A stretch of 11,840 nt of DNA from an uncultured Oscillospiraceae bacterium (GTDB lineage Bacteria > Bacillota > Clostridia > Oscillospirales > Oscillospiraceae). Location: assembly GCA_934589665.1 (NCBI GenBank), contig CAKTOJ010000048.1, positions 1 to 11,840 of the forward strand, written 5' to 3'. The position numbers were made by a program, and so were the translations under genes. The notes beneath the pieces are model-generated. The model worked only from the letters and a program-made list of their open reading frames with translations. It was not told the DNA's origin and searched no databases. This document shows, piece after piece, positions 3,281 through 9,115 of this stretch; the stretch's first letter is position 1; every line of letters starts with the position of its first letter.

Positions 3281-3303
3281 AAATCCGCTCTTATTTCTTG
3301 ACA

Positions 3304-3351
3304 TTTCGCCCGACAATTTGTACTCTTGATTCGTATGAATATAAGGACGGA
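3304..3351 (+). promoter_or_regulatory. Putative ECF-type promoter of the sigma gene (autoregulation)
   Basis: CCGACA (3310-3315), 16 nt, CGTATG (3332-3337). The same arrangement occurs at 4553-4600 before the lipoprotein operon, with identity extending through TTTC upstream and GGAC downstream. CGTA with a 16-nt spacer is the -10 layout of Firmicutes ECF promoters. A separate sigma-A-like element, TTGACA (3298-3303) and TACTCT (3321-3326) with 17-nt spacing, overlaps it and could supply basal expression. Confidence 0.6.
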
Positions 3352-3364
3352 GGGAGGCGAGGCC

Positions 3365-3838
3365 ATGCAGTGGGATTTTGAGGCGTTCTATCTGCGGCAC
3401 TTCAAGGCAATTTACCGCGTCTGCTATGCCTTTATGAAAAACGCGCAGGACGCCGAGGACTGCATGGAGGATACCTTTGTCAAGGCCATGACCTGTGATG
3501 CCGCCTTTGAAAACGAGCGGCACGAGCGCTCCTGGCTGACCAAAACGGCCATGAATCTCTGCAAGGACAGGCTAAAGCACTGGTGGCGGCAGAAGGTGAC
3601 ACCCATTGATGAGGAAACGGAGCAGGCTGCTGCGGAGCCGGACGAAAAACGTGAGGTCACAGAGGCCGTCATGGCTCTGCCAGTCAAATACAAGGAGGTC
3701 GTCTGGCTGCACTACTACGAGGGCTATCAAACCGACGAGATCGCAGCCATACTGAACCGTCCGCCGTCGACCGTGCGAAACCAACTGCGGGACGCCCGGA
3801 CGAAACTGAAGCTTACATTGGGAGGTGAGGACGCATGA
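3365..3838 (+). CDS. ECF-type RNA polymerase sigma factor
   Basis: Predicted 157-residue sigma-70 family protein with only regions 2 and 4, the hallmark of extracytoplasmic-function sigma factors. Region 2 covers about residues 5-73 (FEAFYLRHFKAIYRVCYAFM, then AQDAEDCMEDTFVKAM and the WLTKTAMNLCKD segment). An acidic linker follows (about 74-98). Region 4 covers about 100-150, with LPVKYKEVVWLHYYEGY and a helix-turn-helix TDEIAAILNRPPSTVRNQL for the -35 element. The start is ATG 3365, with GGAGGGAGG at 3349-3357; in-frame TTG 3326 and ATG 3335 lie upstream of this Shine-Dalgarno site and in the presumed promoter. The stop codon overlaps the next gene (ATGA), implying translational coupling to the anti-sigma factor. 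A near-identical promoter motif upstream of this gene and of the acyltransferase operon points to autoregulation plus control of that operon. Confidence 0.92.
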   Translation: MQWDFEAFYLRHFKAIYRVCYAFMKNAQDAEDCMEDTFVKAMTCDAAFENERHERSWLTKTAMNLCKDRLKHWWRQKVTPIDEETEQAAAEPDEKREVTEAVMALPVKYKEVVWLHYYEGYQTDEIAAILNRPPSTVRNQLRDARTKLKLTLGGEDA

Positions 3839-4506
3839 ACGAAAACAATATCAAAAAAGCATTTGACGAAATTGAGCCGGACGCCGGCGCGCAAGAGCGG
3901 ATGTATGCCAACATTTTGAAAAAGGCATCGGCACAGCGTGCCGCATCTGAAAGCAAAGCCGATGTGTCCTCAACATCCGTTCCGCTGCCCACACGCCGCC
4001 CGACTCCGCTGTGGAAGCGTTTCGGCGCAATGGCCGCGTGCCTTGCACTCGTGACAGTTCTCACACGTGGCTTTCTGCATCCGTTTTTTGCCGGGAACAG
4101 CGAGGGAGACGAGCCTCCGGTCATGGTCGGCTCGCCGTTTGAGGATGTGCAGAGCGCGGCAGACTTTGCAAAGCTGGGCTTCACCATCGACGCGCCGGAG
4201 GGCGCGGAGAACGTGACCTATACCATCGCAGACGGCGAGATCGCCCGCGTGGACTTCGCACTGGATGGCCATGAATACACCTATGAAGCGTCAAAGCTGG
4301 ACGGCAACTTTTCCCGCGCAGACGGAGAGGCCGTCGGCAGCGCCGCATTGAGCGCAGAGTACGGAGCCGTGCTCGACCGCGTATCGCCCGACACCTGGCG
4401 CGCGCACTGGAGTGGCGACGGCGTCAGCTATTATCTGACGAACTTTGACGGCGCAGAGGAGGCGGCCATTACAGTCCTTGCGAATACACTGATGGAAGGC
4501 ATCTGA
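3835..4506 (+). CDS. Membrane-anchored anti-sigma factor (predicted partner of the ECF sigma)
   Basis: Predicted 223-residue single-pass membrane protein. The N-terminal ~60 residues are cytoplasmic and charged (KKAFDEIEPDAGAQERMYAN), as expected for a sigma-binding segment. A transmembrane helix lies at about 63-84 (GAMAACLALVTVLTRGF), with basic residues R54, R55, K61 and R62 on the inner side. The rest (about 88-223) is extracytoplasmic and strand-rich, with the repeated feel of DUF4367-type sensor domains (YTIADGEIARVDFALDGHEY). No zinc-binding HxxxCxxC (ZAS) motif is visible, so it is not a classical ZAS anti-sigma factor. The start overlaps the sigma stop by 4 nt, with GGGAGGTGAGG just upstream. 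Position and topology rather than sequence identity carry the call. A strong terminator follows. Confidence 0.75.
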   Translation: MNENNIKKAFDEIEPDAGAQERMYANILKKASAQRAASESKADVSSTSVPLPTRRPTPLWKRFGAMAACLALVTVLTRGFLHPFFAGNSEGDEPPVMVGSPFEDVQSAADFAKLGFTIDAPEGAENVTYTIADGEIARVDFALDGHEYTYEASKLDGNFSRADGEAVGSAALSAEYGAVLDRVSPDTWRAHWSGDGVSYYLTNFDGAEEAAITVLANTLMEGI

Positions 4507-4513
4507 ACACGGT

Positions 4514-4549
4514 AAAATTTCGGAGAGTAAACACTCTCCGAAATTTTTT
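4514..4549 (+). terminator. Intrinsic terminator of the sigma/anti-sigma operon
   Basis: AAAATTTCGGAGAGT (4514-4528) pairs perfectly with 4533-4547 over the loop AAAC, giving 15 bp. A T-rich tail continues to 4555, interrupted once by A at 4550. The end of that tail overlaps the TTTC that begins the second ECF-type promoter, so the next operon starts immediately behind the terminator. Confidence 0.9.
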
Positions 4550-4552
4550 ATT

Positions 4553-4600
4553 TTTCATCCGACATTTTGCTCCGCTCCCTCGTATGGATGTATGGACAGG
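4553..4600 (+). promoter_or_regulatory. Putative ECF-type promoter of the lipoprotein/MBOAT/DHHW operon
   Basis: CCGACA (4559-4564), 16 nt, CGTATG (4581-4586). Aligned without gaps to 3304-3351, it matches at 32 of 48 positions, and the matches cluster at the -35, the -10 and the initiation region (ATnTAnGGACnG). No convincing sigma-A promoter is seen between the terminator at 4514-4549 and the lipoprotein start. The leader would be about 85 nt. Direct control by the adjacent ECF factor is inference. Confidence 0.6.
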
Positions 4601-4680
4601 CAAGAGCACAGCGTTTCCGGAGACGCCGCTCCGCCGCCCACATTCATAAAACATCTTAAACTTTAAAGGAGCAAATCATA

Positions 4681-5343
4681 ATGAAGCGTATTTTGACTTT
4701 TGTGCTTGCCATGAGCATGATGCTTTCCCTCGCCGCCTGCGGCGGCAAGTCCGATGACAACAAGGACAATAACGATAAAAACACAGAGGTGACCATGACG
4801 GCCCAGGAGATCATGGATACCCTGAAAGAGAAGCTGGGCGGCAGCTTCGACTGTGACACGACCGAGGACGAGGCCCGCATGAGCGGCTATTGGGGCTTTG
4901 ATATGGATAAGGTGGAAAGTTGGGCGGCCATGAGTAATTCCAATTCCAGCCTGAACCCCAGCACCACCGTCATTGTCAAGGTCACGGACGGCTATGCACA
5001 GGATGCCGCCGCGCTGTTGCAAACCGGTTATGAGCAACTGCTCAGCTACTCCCGCATGTACAATATGGATCTGCAAAAGGTCCTGCAGGCACGTCTTTTT
5101 GTCAGCGGCAATTACGCGGCCCTGCTGATTCTCGGTGCCGAGGGTGACTGGGCAGCCAGCGACGAGGAGCAGGCCAAGTTCGCCGCTGACGAAGCCGCCA
5201 AGGTCGATGCCGTATGGAACGGCATTTTCGGCTCCGCAGATAACAGCATCACGATTCCCGAGGATACCGGCAGTGACAACGGCGGCTTTTTTGATATGAG
5301 CGATGATGAGCTTCCCGAGGGCGAAATCATGATCGGCGGCTGA
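4681..5343 (+). CDS. Secreted lipoprotein, DUF4358-like, of the surface O-acetylation operon
   Basis: Predicted 220-residue lipoprotein. A type II signal peptide is clear: MKRI, a hydrophobic stretch and the lipobox LSLAAC with lipidation cysteine C20, then a polar D/N/K-rich linker (about 23-36) that keeps the domain off the membrane. The domain from about 38 (TAQEIMDTLKEKLGG) to 175 looks like the DUF4358 family, which I know mainly from Clostridia next to MBOAT and DHHW genes; its function is not established. The C-terminus is acidic and of low complexity (SDDELPEGEIMIGG). AAAGGAG (4665-4671) supports the ATG. The stop is one base before the MBOAT start, so the genes are translationally coupled. 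A role as an accessory factor on the outer face of the membrane is inferred from this context. Confidence 0.75.
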   Translation: MKRILTFVLAMSMMLSLAACGGKSDDNKDNNDKNTEVTMTAQEIMDTLKEKLGGSFDCDTTEDEARMSGYWGFDMDKVESWAAMSNSNSSLNPSTTVIVKVTDGYAQDAAALLQTGYEQLLSYSRMYNMDLQKVLQARLFVSGNYAALLILGAEGDWAASDEEQAKFAADEAAKVDAVWNGIFGSADNSITIPEDTGSDNGGFFDMSDDELPEGEIMIGG

Positions 5344-5344
5344 T

Positions 5345-6736
5345 ATGGTATTCTCCAGCCTGACATTTTTACAATGCTTCCTGCCGCTGTGTCTGCTCTC
5401 TTACTTCATCGTCCCGCAGAAATGGCGCAACGCCATCCTGTTCCTGTTCAGTCTGCTGTTTTACGCATGGGGTGAGCCGGTCTATGTGGTGCTGATGCTG
5501 TTTTCCACCGCATTGGACTACACCTGCGGACAGGTGGTAGAGCGGTACCGTGGACAGCGGGGAGCAAAGATCGCGCTGCTAGTGTCGGTCTGCGTGAACC
5601 TTGGCTTGCTGGGCGTGTTCAAATACAGCAGCTTCCTCATCGGCACCGTCAATTCTCTGTTCGGCACGGCGCTTCCGCGGCCGGATCTGCCGCTGCCCAT
5701 CGGCATCAGCTTCTACACCTTCCAGACCATGAGCTACACCATTGATATCTACCGCGGCGAAGCGAAAGCGCAGAAGAACATCATCAATTTCGGTGCATAT
5801 GTGACCTTATTCCCGCAGCTCATCGCCGGCCCCATCGTCCGCTACCAGACGGTAGCGGACGAGCTGGAGAACCGGAACTGCTCCGCCGATCTGTTTGCCT
5901 CTGGCGTGAAACGCTTTGCCTGCGGCATCGGAAAGAAGGTACTGCTGGCAAACAACATCGGTCTTTTGTGGGAGGCTGCATCCGCACAGGCCTCCCACAC
6001 GGTATTGACGGCGTGGCTGGGCGTCATTGCCTACGGTTTCCAGATCTATTTCGACTTTTCCGGCTATTCCGATATGGCAATCGGCCTCGGACGGATGCTG
6101 GGGTTCCGCTTTTTGGAAAACTTTAACTATCCATTCTTAGCAGACAGTATCACCGATTTCTGGCGGCGCTGGCACATCTCGATGGGAACATGGTTCCGCG
6201 ACTATGTGTATATTCCGCTCGGCGGGAACAGGGGCGGCCTTACAAAGCAGCTGCGCAATATTGCCATCGTCTGGCTGCTCACCGGCCTCTGGCACAGGGC
6301 CAGCTGGAACTTCGTCCTCTGGGGCGTGTATTTTGGCGTGCTGCTGGCGGCAGAAAAGCTGTTTCTGCTGCGCTGGCTCAAGAAACTGCCTGCTGTGCTT
6401 CGCCACATTTACGCACTGGTGCTGGTGACGGTCAACTGGACGCTGTTTGCGTTCACAAATGTCACCAAAGGCTTTATGTGGCTGAAAGCCATGTTCTCCG
6501 GCAGACTGTACGACAGCGCCAGCCTTTATCTTCTGCTGACTTATGGGCTGATGCTGGCGGTTTGTGCTCTGGCCGCCACGCCCCTTTGCAAACGCTTCTA
6601 TGAAAAGCTGAACTCCCGTCTGGGGCAGCGGGCGCTGACTGCGGCCGACTGCGGCGGACTGCTCTGCGTACTGGTGATGTCCATGGCCTATCTGGTCAGC
6701 GGCAGCTACAATCCGTTCCTTTACTTCCGATTTTGA
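5345..6736 (+). CDS. MBOAT-family O-acyltransferase (AlgI-like)
   Basis: Predicted 463-residue polytopic membrane protein with about ten hydrophobic segments. It belongs to the membrane-bound O-acyltransferases that move an acyl group, usually acetyl, across the membrane for transfer to a cell-surface polysaccharide, as AlgI and PatA do. Family landmarks include LPIGISFYTFQTMSY (117-131), FPQLIAGPIVRY (156-167), YFDFSGYSDMAIGLG (235-249), DFWRRWHISMGTWFRDYVYI (271-290) and LTGLWHRASWNFVLWG (312-327). H277 is conserved, and H317 corresponds to the presumed catalytic histidine. Length matches AlgI-type proteins. The ATG lies one base after the lipoprotein stop and has only a weak ribosome site, so it depends on coupling. 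The next gene, a DHHW protein, is the usual partner that passes the acyl group on. The polymer acetylated cannot be named: no glycosyltransferases are in the window. Confidence 0.9.
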   Translation: MVFSSLTFLQCFLPLCLLSYFIVPQKWRNAILFLFSLLFYAWGEPVYVVLMLFSTALDYTCGQVVERYRGQRGAKIALLVSVCVNLGLLGVFKYSSFLIGTVNSLFGTALPRPDLPLPIGISFYTFQTMSYTIDIYRGEAKAQKNIINFGAYVTLFPQLIAGPIVRYQTVADELENRNCSADLFASGVKRFACGIGKKVLLANNIGLLWEAASAQASHTVLTAWLGVIAYGFQIYFDFSGYSDMAIGLGRMLGFRFLENFNYPFLADSITDFWRRWHISMGTWFRDYVYIPLGGNRGGLTKQLRNIAIVWLLTGLWHRASWNFVLWGVYFGVLLAAEKLFLLRWLKKLPAVLRHIYALVLVTVNWTLFAFTNVTKGFMWLKAMFSGRLYDSASLYLLLTYGLMLAVCALAATPLCKRFYEKLNSRLGQRALTAADCGGLLCVLVMSMAYLVSGSYNPFLYFRF

Positions 6737-6745
6737 GGTGAGAGT

Positions 6746-7843
6746 ATGCGAAACAAGATCATAACCTCTTTTTTCTGCCTGCTGCTGGCGGCGTCCGCAC
6801 TCATCGGGCTGATGATACCGGACCGGTACTATTCGGAGCGGGAAAAGCGCACCCTGACGCAAAAGCCGCGCTTCACCGCCGCTTCTTTCATCTCCGGCAA
6901 GTTCGGCGACGAGCTGGAACGCTACCTCACCGATCAAATCCCTCTGCGGGACGGCTGGGTAACCATGAAGACCTATCTGGAGCTGGCCGCCGGGAAACGG
7001 GAAAGCGGCGGCGTTTACATTTGCAAGGATAAGTACCTGATGGACAAATTCACCTCTTACAGCAAAAAGCAGCTTGCCGCCAACGCAGCCGCCCTTGCTG
7101 ATTTACAAAAGAAGCTGGCGGCAGAGGGCATCCCCATGAACACGATGCTCGCACCCGTGGCGGCGCAGGTCCTCACGGACAAGCTGCCCGCCTATGCCCC
7201 TGCGGCGGACTACGCCGCTGTTCTGCAAGTGCTGACCGACACAGGAATTGATACGGTGAACGTATTTTCTGCCCTCTCCGCTCACAGCAGCGAAAACATT
7301 TATTACCGCACCGACCACCATTGGACGAGCCTTGGGGCCTACTACGCCTACTGCGCATGGCGCGGCGTCGAGCCATCGGCGGTCGACTGGACGCAGGAGG
7401 TACTCTGCGACAACTTCCGCGGCACGACTTGGAACAAGGTTCCCCTGCCTACGATCTCCGCCGAGGAGATTACTGCATGGTACCGGCATCCGGAGCGCCG
7501 TGTATCCTACAATGACGGGCAGTATGAAACGGACAGCATCTATGAACGCAGATACCTTGAGGGCAGTGACCAATACGCGGTGTTTCTGAACTCCAATCAG
7601 GCGCAGACAGTCATCGCGGGCAGCGGAGAAAACGGCAGACTTCTGCTCATCAAGGACTCCTATGGCAATACATTCGTCCAGTTTCCTGTGGAGGACTATG
7701 CCGAAGTCCACGTTCTCGACCTCCGTTTTTTCAAGGGTGACGTGACCGAATACGCCAAAGAGAACGGCATTACTGATGTACTGGTGCTCTACGGCACACA
7801 GAACTTTATAAAGGACACAAGCCTACAGACTGCGGCAGGATAA
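6746..7843 (+). CDS. DHHW-family extracytoplasmic protein, probable polysaccharide O-acetylation partner
   Basis: Predicted 365-residue protein with an N-terminal membrane anchor or uncleaved signal (about 4-24, IITSFFCLLLAASALIGLMI) and an exported catalytic-type domain. The family signature TDHHW is at 189-193 within YYRTDHHWTSLGAYYAY. A second block, LLIKDSYGNTF (300-310), carries a serine (S305) placed like the nucleophile of the SGNH-like AlgJ/AlgX acetyltransferases; D190, H192 and S305 form a plausible triad by analogy, not by proof. The region KFGDELERYLTDQIPLRD (52-69) is also typical of the family. The start ATG 6746 follows GAGGTGA (6735-6741), which begins in the MBOAT stop codon; the gap is 9 nt. 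With MBOAT supplying acyl groups outside, this protein would complete transfer to a glycan. No clear terminator follows. Confidence 0.85.
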   Translation: MRNKIITSFFCLLLAASALIGLMIPDRYYSEREKRTLTQKPRFTAASFISGKFGDELERYLTDQIPLRDGWVTMKTYLELAAGKRESGGVYICKDKYLMDKFTSYSKKQLAANAAALADLQKKLAAEGIPMNTMLAPVAAQVLTDKLPAYAPAADYAAVLQVLTDTGIDTVNVFSALSAHSSENIYYRTDHHWTSLGAYYAYCAWRGVEPSAVDWTQEVLCDNFRGTTWNKVPLPTISAEEITAWYRHPERRVSYNDGQYETDSIYERRYLEGSDQYAVFLNSNQAQTVIAGSGENGRLLLIKDSYGNTFVQFPVEDYAEVHVLDLRFFKGDVTEYAKENGITDVLVLYGTQNFIKDTSLQTAAG

Positions 7844-8350: not shown

Positions 8351-8385
8351 AAACAGCGCCTGTGAGGATCACAGGCGCTGTTTTT
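8351..8385. terminator. Bidirectional terminator between hxlR-type gene and lexA
   Basis: AAACAGCGCCTGTGA (8351-8365) pairs with TCACAGGCGCTGTTT (8369-8383) over a GGA loop, so the stem is probably 13-15 bp. TTTTT follows on the plus strand. On the minus strand the exit is TTTCTGCTTTTTG. It serves the convergent ends of the regulator gene and lexA. Confidence 0.9.
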
Positions 8386-8400
8386 ACCGTTCTTTCCAAC

Positions 8401-8426
8401 TGCTAAACGCGTGCTCGTGTTTAGCA
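8401..8426. other. Extra hairpin downstream of lexA
   Basis: TGCTAAACGC pairs with GTGTTTAGCA (10 bp, one G-U pair) around a 6-nt loop. It lies in the 3' untranslated part of the lexA transcript, between the stop codon and the terminator. There is no U-tail, so it is more likely a stabilising or processing structure than a second terminator. Function unknown. Confidence 0.5.
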
Positions 8427-8458
8427 ACGCTCCTGCGCCACATTCAGCACAGTCACGT

Positions 8459-9115
8459 TTAATACTGGCGCACCACGGCAACGACCTTGCCGAGGATCTC
8501 GCACTCCCGTCCGTCGATGGGCTGATAGTCGGGGTTCGCAGGCAGGAGCCAGATCTCCCCATTCTGCTTTTTGAAGGTCTTGACCGTGGCCTCATCGCCG
8601 ATGAGCGCAACGACGATCTCCCCATTCACCGCCGTCTGCTGGCGGCGGACAACGACCAGATCATCCGGCAGAATCCCGACGCCGAGCATGGACTCGCCCC
8701 GCACGCGCAGTGCAAAAAACTCCCCGCTGCGATTGCCGGTGTCAAAGGTCAGGTAGTCCTCCACGCACTCCTGCGCCAGAATCGGGCTGCCTGCGGCGAC
8801 ATTGCCGACGATGGGAATGCGGTTTTCCCTCGCATCCGTCTCCTCCATAAAGTCGCTCCGTGCCGGCGGCGCAGAGGCAGCGGCAGACTGCTGCCCTAAC
8901 GCCTCTGCGCTGAGCTTGATCGCGCGGCCCTTGCCTGCGCTGCGCTCCAGATAGCCCAGCTCCTCAAGGTGCTTGATGTGAAAATGCGCGGTGGAGGGCG
9001 ACTTGAGGTCAAGCGCAGCGCAGATTTCGCGCACAGAGGGCGGATAGCCCTGTTCTCTCACGCATTTAACGATGTAGTCATAGACCTTCTGCTGCATTTT
9101 CGACAGCTTTTCCAT
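8459..9115 (-). CDS. lexA: LexA, SOS-response repressor and self-cleaving peptidase
   Basis: Predicted 218-residue protein that represses DNA-damage genes and cuts itself when stimulated by RecA filaments. The N-terminal winged HTH (about 1-70) has the LexA pattern MQQKVYDYIVKCVREQGYPP, SVREICAALDLKSPSTAHFH and HLEELGYLERS. A hinge (about 71-98) follows, then the S24 peptidase domain: cleavage site A108-G109 in VGNVAAGSPILA, nucleophile S142 in RGESMLGVGILPDDL and general-base K179 in DEATVKTF. All catalytic residues are present and length is normal. The start is at 9115, preceded by AGGAGGAGG (9125-9133) with a 9-nt spacer; a longer frame reaching 9181 runs through the promoter and is rejected. 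It is divergent from the MoxR gene and convergent with the HxlR regulator. A degenerate LexA box inside its promoter indicates autoregulation. Confidence 0.97.
   Translation of the reverse strand: MEKLSKMQQKVYDYIVKCVREQGYPPSVREICAALDLKSPSTAHFHIKHLEELGYLERSAGKGRAIKLSAEALGQQSAAASAPPARSDFMEETDARENRIPIVGNVAAGSPILAQECVEDYLTFDTGNRSGEFFALRVRGESMLGVGILPDDLVVVRRQQTAVNGEIVVALIGDEATVKTFKKQNGEIWLLPANPDYQPIDGRECEILGKVVAVVRQY

Follow-up and report, generated by a model that had tools for sequence, protein, structure and literature searches.

Envelope acylation under known and proposed control by ECF sigma factors

Envelope acylation controlled by an ECF sigma factor has been described in Bacillus subtilis, where SigV drives oatA, and dlt depends on it for induction by lysozyme (PMC5014341; PMC8287880). 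As far as the available excerpts of these papers go, the SigV-RsiV-OatA system, together with the SigV-dependent dltABCDE genes, combines an ECF sigma factor, a membrane anti-sigma factor, autoregulation and an envelope-acylation output, and the locus analyzed here appears to bring together predicted counterparts of these elements. The two systems differ in enzyme class, in the anti-sigma domain, in the promoter, and in the presence of a second promoter behind a putative terminator. OatA is, according to the same excerpts, a fusion of AT3 and SGNH domains encoded within the sigV operon, whereas the window (i.e., the whole stretch of 11,840 nt that was analyzed) encodes an MBOAT protein, a DHHW protein and a lipoprotein behind a candidate second promoter of their own. 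The outer part of RsiV has DUF4163 and DUF3298, while the anti-sigma candidate of the window has no such Pfam match at E 0.001.

Acyltransferases of the MBOAT/DHHW kind are known from other bacteria as well. In excerpts of the respective reports, PatA is auto-acetylated in its FXYXXF acyl-shuttle motif (PMC12148441), PatB1 of B. cereus is a secondary cell wall polysaccharide O-acetyltransferase (PMC9487903), and clostridial tandem MBOAT/DHHW pairs are proposed to O-acetylate cellulose (PMC7710045). Judged from these excerpts, PatA1/PatB1 of B. cereus and clostridial CcsH/CcsI resemble the pair in the window in that MBOAT and DHHW proteins are encoded in tandem. Unlike them, the window pair is linked to an ECF sigma switch and to a DUF4358 lipoprotein; a polysaccharide synthase gene beside the pair was not seen among the window proteins searched.

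A previous inspection of this DNA (hereafter the sequence-only reading) held that no ECF regulon of this composition had been described. Indeed, none was found in open-licence PMC papers, and none with DUF4358 among the matches listed there. The principle, however, that an ECF sigma factor and a membrane anti-sigma factor govern envelope acylation is already known, since SigV drives oatA, and SigV-RsiV-OatA is a functional analogue of the present locus. What the locus adds, for uncharacterized clostridial sigma factors of the gut and rumen type, is a concrete, testable regulon in which envelope sensing would be tied to MBOAT/DHHW acylation.

Organization of the locus and proposed mechanism

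All features of the locus lie on the forward (+) strand of the window, which probably comes from a member of the Clostridia. The sigma factor (157 aa, 3365–3838) consists of just the sigma2 and sigma4 domains (Sigma70_r2, residues 9–73; Sigma70_r4_2, residues 96–148) with a short linker, which by Pfam is the ECF (group IV) architecture, and the top solved relative in a profile search is SigW (5wuq). Its stop codon overlaps, in the sequence ATGA, with the start of a gene for a putative membrane anti-sigma factor (223 aa, 3835–4506). The sigma/anti-sigma unit is closed by a terminator-like hairpin (4514–4547, 15-bp stem) with a T-rich tail (the whole element spanning 4514–4557), the hairpin ending 11 nt upstream of the -35 of a second promoter. 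Three genes follow: a DUF4358 lipoprotein (220 aa, 4681–5343; PF14270, E 1.1e-06; lipobox-like LAAC), an MBOAT acyltransferase (463 aa, 5345–6736; PF03062, E 3.7e-27), whose C-terminus reads ...NPFLYFRF, and a DHHW/SGNH protein (365 aa, 6746–7843; PF14286, E 2.1e-25) with the motifs TDHHW and DSYGN.

Both units are preceded by the same promoter-like motif. The window has two copies of CCGACA-N16-CGTATG and no more, both of them on the forward strand: at 3310–3337 (-35 at 3310–3315, -10 at 3332–3337; putatively autoregulatory) and at 4559–4586 (-35 at 4559–4564, -10 at 4581–4586). The ATG of the sigma gene lies 27 nt downstream of the first -10, and that of the lipoprotein gene (4681) 94 nt downstream of the second. 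The distance of 1249 bp between the copies, as given in the sequence-only reading, was confirmed; the chance expectation is 0.01, and two copies were found in none of 200 shuffles. Likewise, the ungapped 48-nt alignment reported there (3301–3348 against 4550–4597) was recovered with its 32 identities, compared with a mean best identity of 21.8 and a maximum of 25 in 60 shuffles of both intergenic stretches. ECF promoters are described, in an excerpt of PMC8103513, as having AAC in the -35 and CGT in the -10; both window sites have CGT in the -10, and their -35 reads GAC (CCGACA).

We propose, with a probability of roughly 0.8, that the locus encodes a self-contained ECF sigma switch, which drives its own operon and the acyltransferase operon from shared promoters. 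The overlapping membrane protein (3835–4506) would keep the sigma factor (3365–3838) inactive until an envelope signal causes its release. The freed sigma factor would then start transcription at the copy at 3310, i.e., of its own operon in a positive feedback, and would also fire the copy at 4559, leading to transcription of the lipoprotein, MBOAT and DHHW genes. Since the terminator at 4514–4547 would split the two units, the effector operon would need a promoter of its own. Finally, the C-terminal tyrosine of the MBOAT protein would take up an acyl group, probably acetyl, from a donor in the cytoplasm and hand it on to the DHHW enzyme, which would attach it to a surface glycan. The comparisons described below support the pair of shared promoters, together with their conservation, their operon specificity and the near-private regulon in relatives; the anti-sigma function, use of the terminator, the signal, the donor, the acyl group and the glycan are inferred in addition.

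Acetyl transfer onto a surface glycan is suggested by features of both enzymes. The C-terminal FLYFRF of the MBOAT protein satisfies the FXYXXF acyl-shuttle motif, and its partner has the PF14286 domain, the DHHW motif and the DSYGN motif expected of an SGNH partner, the serine of DSYGN probably being the catalytic one; against the structure of B. cereus PatB1 (5v8d), the DHHW protein scores E 1.5e-20. The switch could operate as described and yet serve to acylate something other than a glycan, e.g., teichoic acid or a lipid: the substrate is unreadable from sequence, and the MBOAT protein matches the DltB model TIGR04091, although at 164.8 bits it stays below the cut-off of 375 and does not reach a curated DltB score. 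Since the MBOAT protein shares the FXYXXF tail of MBOATs that use acyl-CoA, and since its DHHW partner is a relative of an enzyme that O-acetylates a secondary cell wall polysaccharide, we regard a non-glycan target as rather unlikely, though as a serious competitor to the glycan.

Conservation of the promoter upstream of the sigma gene

A scan of genome contigs yielded 57 loci with a relative of the sigma factor, mostly from records titled Clostridia, Lachnospiraceae, Oscillospiraceae or Ruminococcus, many of them from ruminants. One locus (L057, 26% sigma identity) was dropped, and the sigma relatives in the remaining 56 share 39–62% identity with that of the window. Each locus was scored by its best match to CCGACA/CGTTAT with the spacing fixed at 16, over the 105 positions that begin between 150 and 45 nt upstream of the sigma match. 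The score was 12 out of 12 in 39 loci, 11 in ten, 10 in two, 9 in one and 7 in four; CCGACA-N16-CGTTAT or a near variant (at least 9/12) thus precedes 52 of the 56 sigma relatives, with at least 11 matches in 49/56. In random segments from the same loci, at least 10 matches were reached in 33/3000, part of which are possibly real sites. Among the four loci scoring 7, L018 has CCGACA-N16-CGTGCA closer to the gene, and L051–L053 have a promoter of another type, for which reason these three were left out of the site matrix. In 44 first sites that are non-redundant at 90% sigma identity, information content amounts to 1.4–1.95 bits at CCGAC and 1.8–1.95 bits at GTTAT, and the ribosome-binding site forms an additional conserved block. 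Mid-spacer positions carry almost no information (at most 0.14 bits), and the conservation is therefore that of a promoter rather than of the surrounding DNA.

When the matrix trained on relatives was applied to the window, its two sites scored 7.8 and -1.8, compared with 19.8–46.4 in the training set, because the window has CGTATG where the relatives have CGTTAT; position 4538 of the window scored 7.1 with the same matrix. Having learnt an invariant CGTTAT, the matrix fails to single out the second site of the window.

The first site overlaps with a sigma-A-like element, TTGACA-N17-TACTCT (3298–3326), which the sequence-only reading had noted and which is indeed present, possibly as a basal promoter. 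Conceivably, this element is the true promoter of the sigma operon and the CCGACA/CGTATG pair is incidental; sigma-A-like pairs are in fact enriched within 100 nt upstream of the first site (15/45, compared with 30/500 random segments). Among 45 sequences, however, a TTGACA-like box (at least 5/6) at this very place is found in the window alone, whereas the ECF pair is conserved, and a basal sigma-A promoter beside an ECF promoter would be compatible with a sigma switch. We therefore consider it very improbable that the ECF pair is incidental.

The second site and the genes behind it

A second copy of the motif is found in 24 of the 56 loci, 0.7 to 3.6 kb downstream and usually directly after the anti-sigma gene (this count leaves out a hit in L044, 3.2 kb away, and a minus-strand hit inside a reading frame in L055). 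Where at least 1600 nt follow the sigma match (n = 39), the second site is present in 17 loci and absent from 22. The full cassette of sigma, anti-sigma, lipoprotein, MBOAT and DHHW genes occurs in 13 loci (L002, L003, L004, L006, L009, L010, L016, L023, L028, L031, L032, L037, L054), and the second site precedes the lipoprotein gene in 13/13; ten of these are non-redundant at 90% sigma identity, and L002 and L003 come from one genome. In other loci, different genes occupy this position: a gene of a 430-aa lipoprotein family in L012 and L013, genes for proteins with a Cu_amine_oxidN1 domain in L026 and L056, and the gene for a 209-aa protein without family in L008, while in L015 and L021 the contig ends shortly after the second site.

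Some loci without a second site (L025, L042) have a lipoprotein gene of the 430-aa family immediately 3' of the anti-sigma gene. Genes of this family of 400–450 aa (L012:8347–9693, L013:8340–9650, L025, L042, L045, L049, L136) either have a second site in front of them or come next after the anti-sigma gene; the three members scanned (L012, L013, L136) have no Pfam match.

Specificity of the motif and size of the regulon

Specificity for the cassette was assessed with 50 MBOAT loci (of 82 matches), scanned over 1.5 kb upstream (521 nt for L299). They come from two sets of genomes: 18 of the genus that MoxR places nearest to the window, and 23 in which a cassette sigma factor occurs. MBOAT copies linked to the sigma gene have a perfect 12/12 site in all 12 cases, about 740–1040 nt upstream. 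By comparison, a site with at least 11/12 matches precedes 1/18 non-linked copies in the genomes with a cassette sigma factor (the one scoring 11/12) and 0/20 copies of the MoxR-nearest genus, so that 37/38 non-linked copies are without the motif. Conservation with a fixed 16-nt spacing at orthologous sigma and MBOAT loci, which had been proposed as a check on the shared promoter, was thus borne out in related loci. The one exception, L338 (the same place as L313), is a lipoprotein-MBOAT-DHHW operon on a different contig from the sigma gene of its genome; no sigma or anti-sigma match lies on this contig, which extends 3.7 kb upstream of the site. If the assembly is correct, the motif travels with the operon even away from the sigma gene.

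A pattern search in 25 whole genomes gave 51 matches, compared with three for the reversed control, with no match in one genome. Most of them (43) are at the sigma locus, four lie inside reading frames elsewhere, and four precede genes for probably exported proteins, namely a 1209-aa protein with collagen and FG-GAP repeats, a 404-aa lipoprotein, a serpin and a small lipoprotein. The serpin gene (L138:400–1764, genome G689) is not at the sigma locus and immediately follows a CCGACA-N16-CGTTAT site. As counted in relatives, the regulon looks tiny and near-private.

The cassette looks accessory, because it is absent around MoxR in L083 and because 17/18 genomes of the genus are without a sigma match at E 1e-30, the remaining genome having a distant relative. 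L083, the nearest genome by MoxR (93%), has kept the genes lexA-MoxR-VWA, and 16 kb around its MoxR gene contain no match to the sigma/acylation cassette (window 3365–7843). No sigma relative above 63% identity was found among whole genomes from one family (297), the MoxR-nearest genus (18), its family (400) and its order (394), these samples overlapping; closer sigma relatives, at 83–90% identity, are known as proteins. No sigma relative was found in viral contigs; the promoter pattern matches at least 120 stretches there, which were taken as chance.

A more distant group of sigma factors (L067, L069, L082, L116–L134), with about 43–51% sigma identity, has promoters of the form CCRACR-N16-YGTATT, i.e., with a -35 of the common family and the same spacing as the window. 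In 21 genomes of this group, the strict pattern gave 23 matches, compared with one in the control; 16 genomes have between one and three matches each, and the other five have none. Fourteen of the 23 are at the sigma gene; unlike in the window, a second match at one and the same sigma gene was found in no genome.

Autoregulation alone therefore seems common in the wider family, and one might argue that the sigma factor of the window, too, drives only its own operon, the second copy being a relic or weak and the acyltransferase operon being transcribed by sigma A or by read-through. The absence of the second site from 22 of 39 sufficiently long loci would fit such an arrangement. On the other hand, the full cassette never lacks the second site, whose -35 and -10 are at high information, the MBOAT copies unlinked to a sigma gene lack the motif with a single exception, and in the window a terminator-like hairpin lies upstream of the second site. 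Control of the sigma operon alone is thus improbable, and a switch acting on both operons is preferred.

Hairpins at the second promoter

In 8/24 relatives (L003, L004, L006, L010, L016, L023, L024, L054), the second CCGACA is itself the 3' arm of a hairpin of 15–19 pairs with up to two mismatches, which is followed by a T-run. All of these sites precede a DUF4358 lipoprotein gene, and some of the loci are closely related. In the window, the hairpin is separate from the second -35, without a fused arm. By a strict test, which was designed after looking at sequences from plain folding and demands an arm ending at the -35, CCGACA is a hairpin arm at 0/45 first sites and at 0/169 other occurrences in these loci. 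Plain folding gives a weaker contrast: at least four of the six -35 bases are paired upstream at 15/25 second and 18/45 first sites, with mean energies of -16.2 and -8.9 kcal/mol, respectively. Separate terminator-like hairpins are about equally frequent before the second (8/25) and the first site (13/45), compared with 33/400 random segments. Hairpin and T-run would fit a terminator of the sigma operon, in which case one DNA stretch would serve as both terminator and promoter.

Alternatively, the inverted repeat TGTCGG...CCGACA might be an operator for another regulator and no sigma promoter at all, a notion which draws on the fused hairpins just described. Yet the repeat is present at none of the 45 first sites, nor at the second site of the window, an invariant -10 at a fixed spacing of 16 would be left unexplained, and a hairpin followed by TTTT fits a terminator. 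An operator is hence scarcely credible, and we continue to read CCGACA as the -35 of a sigma promoter.

Co-variation of the -10 and sigma residue 56

The -10 reads CGTATG at both promoters of the window, a sequence known from one genome, as opposed to CGTTAT in relatives and CGTATT or TGTATT in the more distant group. The sequence-only reading had suggested a new promoter specificity on account of the -35. It is true that GAC departs from the textbook AAC, but some relatives (L116, L126, L133) read CCAAC, and the conspicuous variation concerns the -10.

Sigma residue 56 was compared in 59 non-redundant genes, excluding the window, 12 names with no site or another -10, and short or redundant (at least 90%) sequences. 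It is K or R in 41/42 genes with CGTTA-type sites and A in 17/17 with CGTAT-type sites (Fisher 6.5e-14, a value that ignores relatedness). The window sigma factor has S56, and its clade has S or A at this position. Residues 15 and 59 have higher mutual information with the -10 class and separate the classes still better; residue 56 was picked out because the window groups with the CGTAT class there. In a tree, the window clade (support 100/99) lies within the CGTTA-type clade (fork 96/87), away from the CGTAT group, and residue 56 and a CGTAT-type -10 thus seem to go together on separate branches. This co-variation is promising; a set of natural sigma-promoter pairs in which one residue is the candidate determinant of specificity would help to explain how ECF factors recognize promoters and to build orthogonal switches. 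An ‘HWW’ motif in region 2.4 was considered as -10 determinant as well, but was dropped, since L007, L040 and L066 combine HWW with CGTTAT.

Within a locus, the two promoters tend to vary together: in L013, L056 and the window both share the same deviations, while in L020 and L026 the core differs between them. Overall, cores agree better within loci than across them, at 309/312 positions compared with a shuffled mean of 299.5; the observed agreement was reached in 3/20000 shuffles (121/20000 with the window left out), and these shuffles are uncorrected for relatedness. Such agreement is expected if one sigma factor reads both sites. Together with conservation and specificity, it supports the core claim of the sequence-only reading, that this sigma factor recognizes the promoters of both its own operon and the lipoprotein/MBOAT/DHHW operon.

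A wider and more tentative proposal, which we hold possible but would not yet favor, is that the loci represent a family of portable ECF cassettes, each controlling about two promoters. Residue 56 and both -10s would change together across this family and thereby give rise to a natural series of mutually insulated switches. The second -35 would double as an arm of the sigma-operon terminator in part of the family, the effector slot would be exchangeable (lipoprotein/MBOAT/DHHW, the 400–450 aa lipoprotein, or others) and the outer domain of the anti-sigma factor varied, allowing cell-surface sensing and remodeling without touching other regulons.

The anti-sigma candidate

Several features suggest that the 3835–4506 membrane protein is the anti-sigma factor: its position in the locus, the overlap of its start codon with the sigma stop codon, an N-terminal motif that is conserved, and a predicted helix. 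Among the window proteins, it is the best match for 34 other reading frames of the related loci. An AlphaFold2 model has one helix of low confidence at residues 62–80 (pLDDT about 57–62), which is read as membrane-spanning, and an outer beta domain at 102–222 (confidence >90). The protein has no match in Pfam or NCBIfam at E 0.001, and no clear relative of its outer domain was found.

Outer domains vary among relatives: the protein at the anti-sigma position in L030 (7471–9072) ends in a C-terminal von Willebrand A domain. In L009 (8371–10420), the interval that separates the anti-sigma gene from the second promoter contains a second sigma gene (8371–8958), followed by the gene for a 500-aa serpin-domain protein (PF00079, E 7.2e-81). 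As read from its sequence, the serpin-domain protein has a membrane helix, and its N-terminus resembles that of anti-sigma factors; it would be unusual for an anti-sigma factor to sense through a serpin.

Other elements of the window

Two further elements lie upstream of the cassette. A GC-rich inverted repeat (aacgccgcccgttgtcc...gggcggcg) is present in two copies, at 60–90 and 1630–1660, which flank a reading frame (161–1519) with a weak HATPase match. Upstream of an aminotransferase gene, the stretch 2015–2130, which matches no Rfam family at gathering score, is predicted to form a very stable two-hairpin RNA fold (-63.3 kcal/mol, z -7.5), possibly an uncharacterized cis-regulatory RNA.
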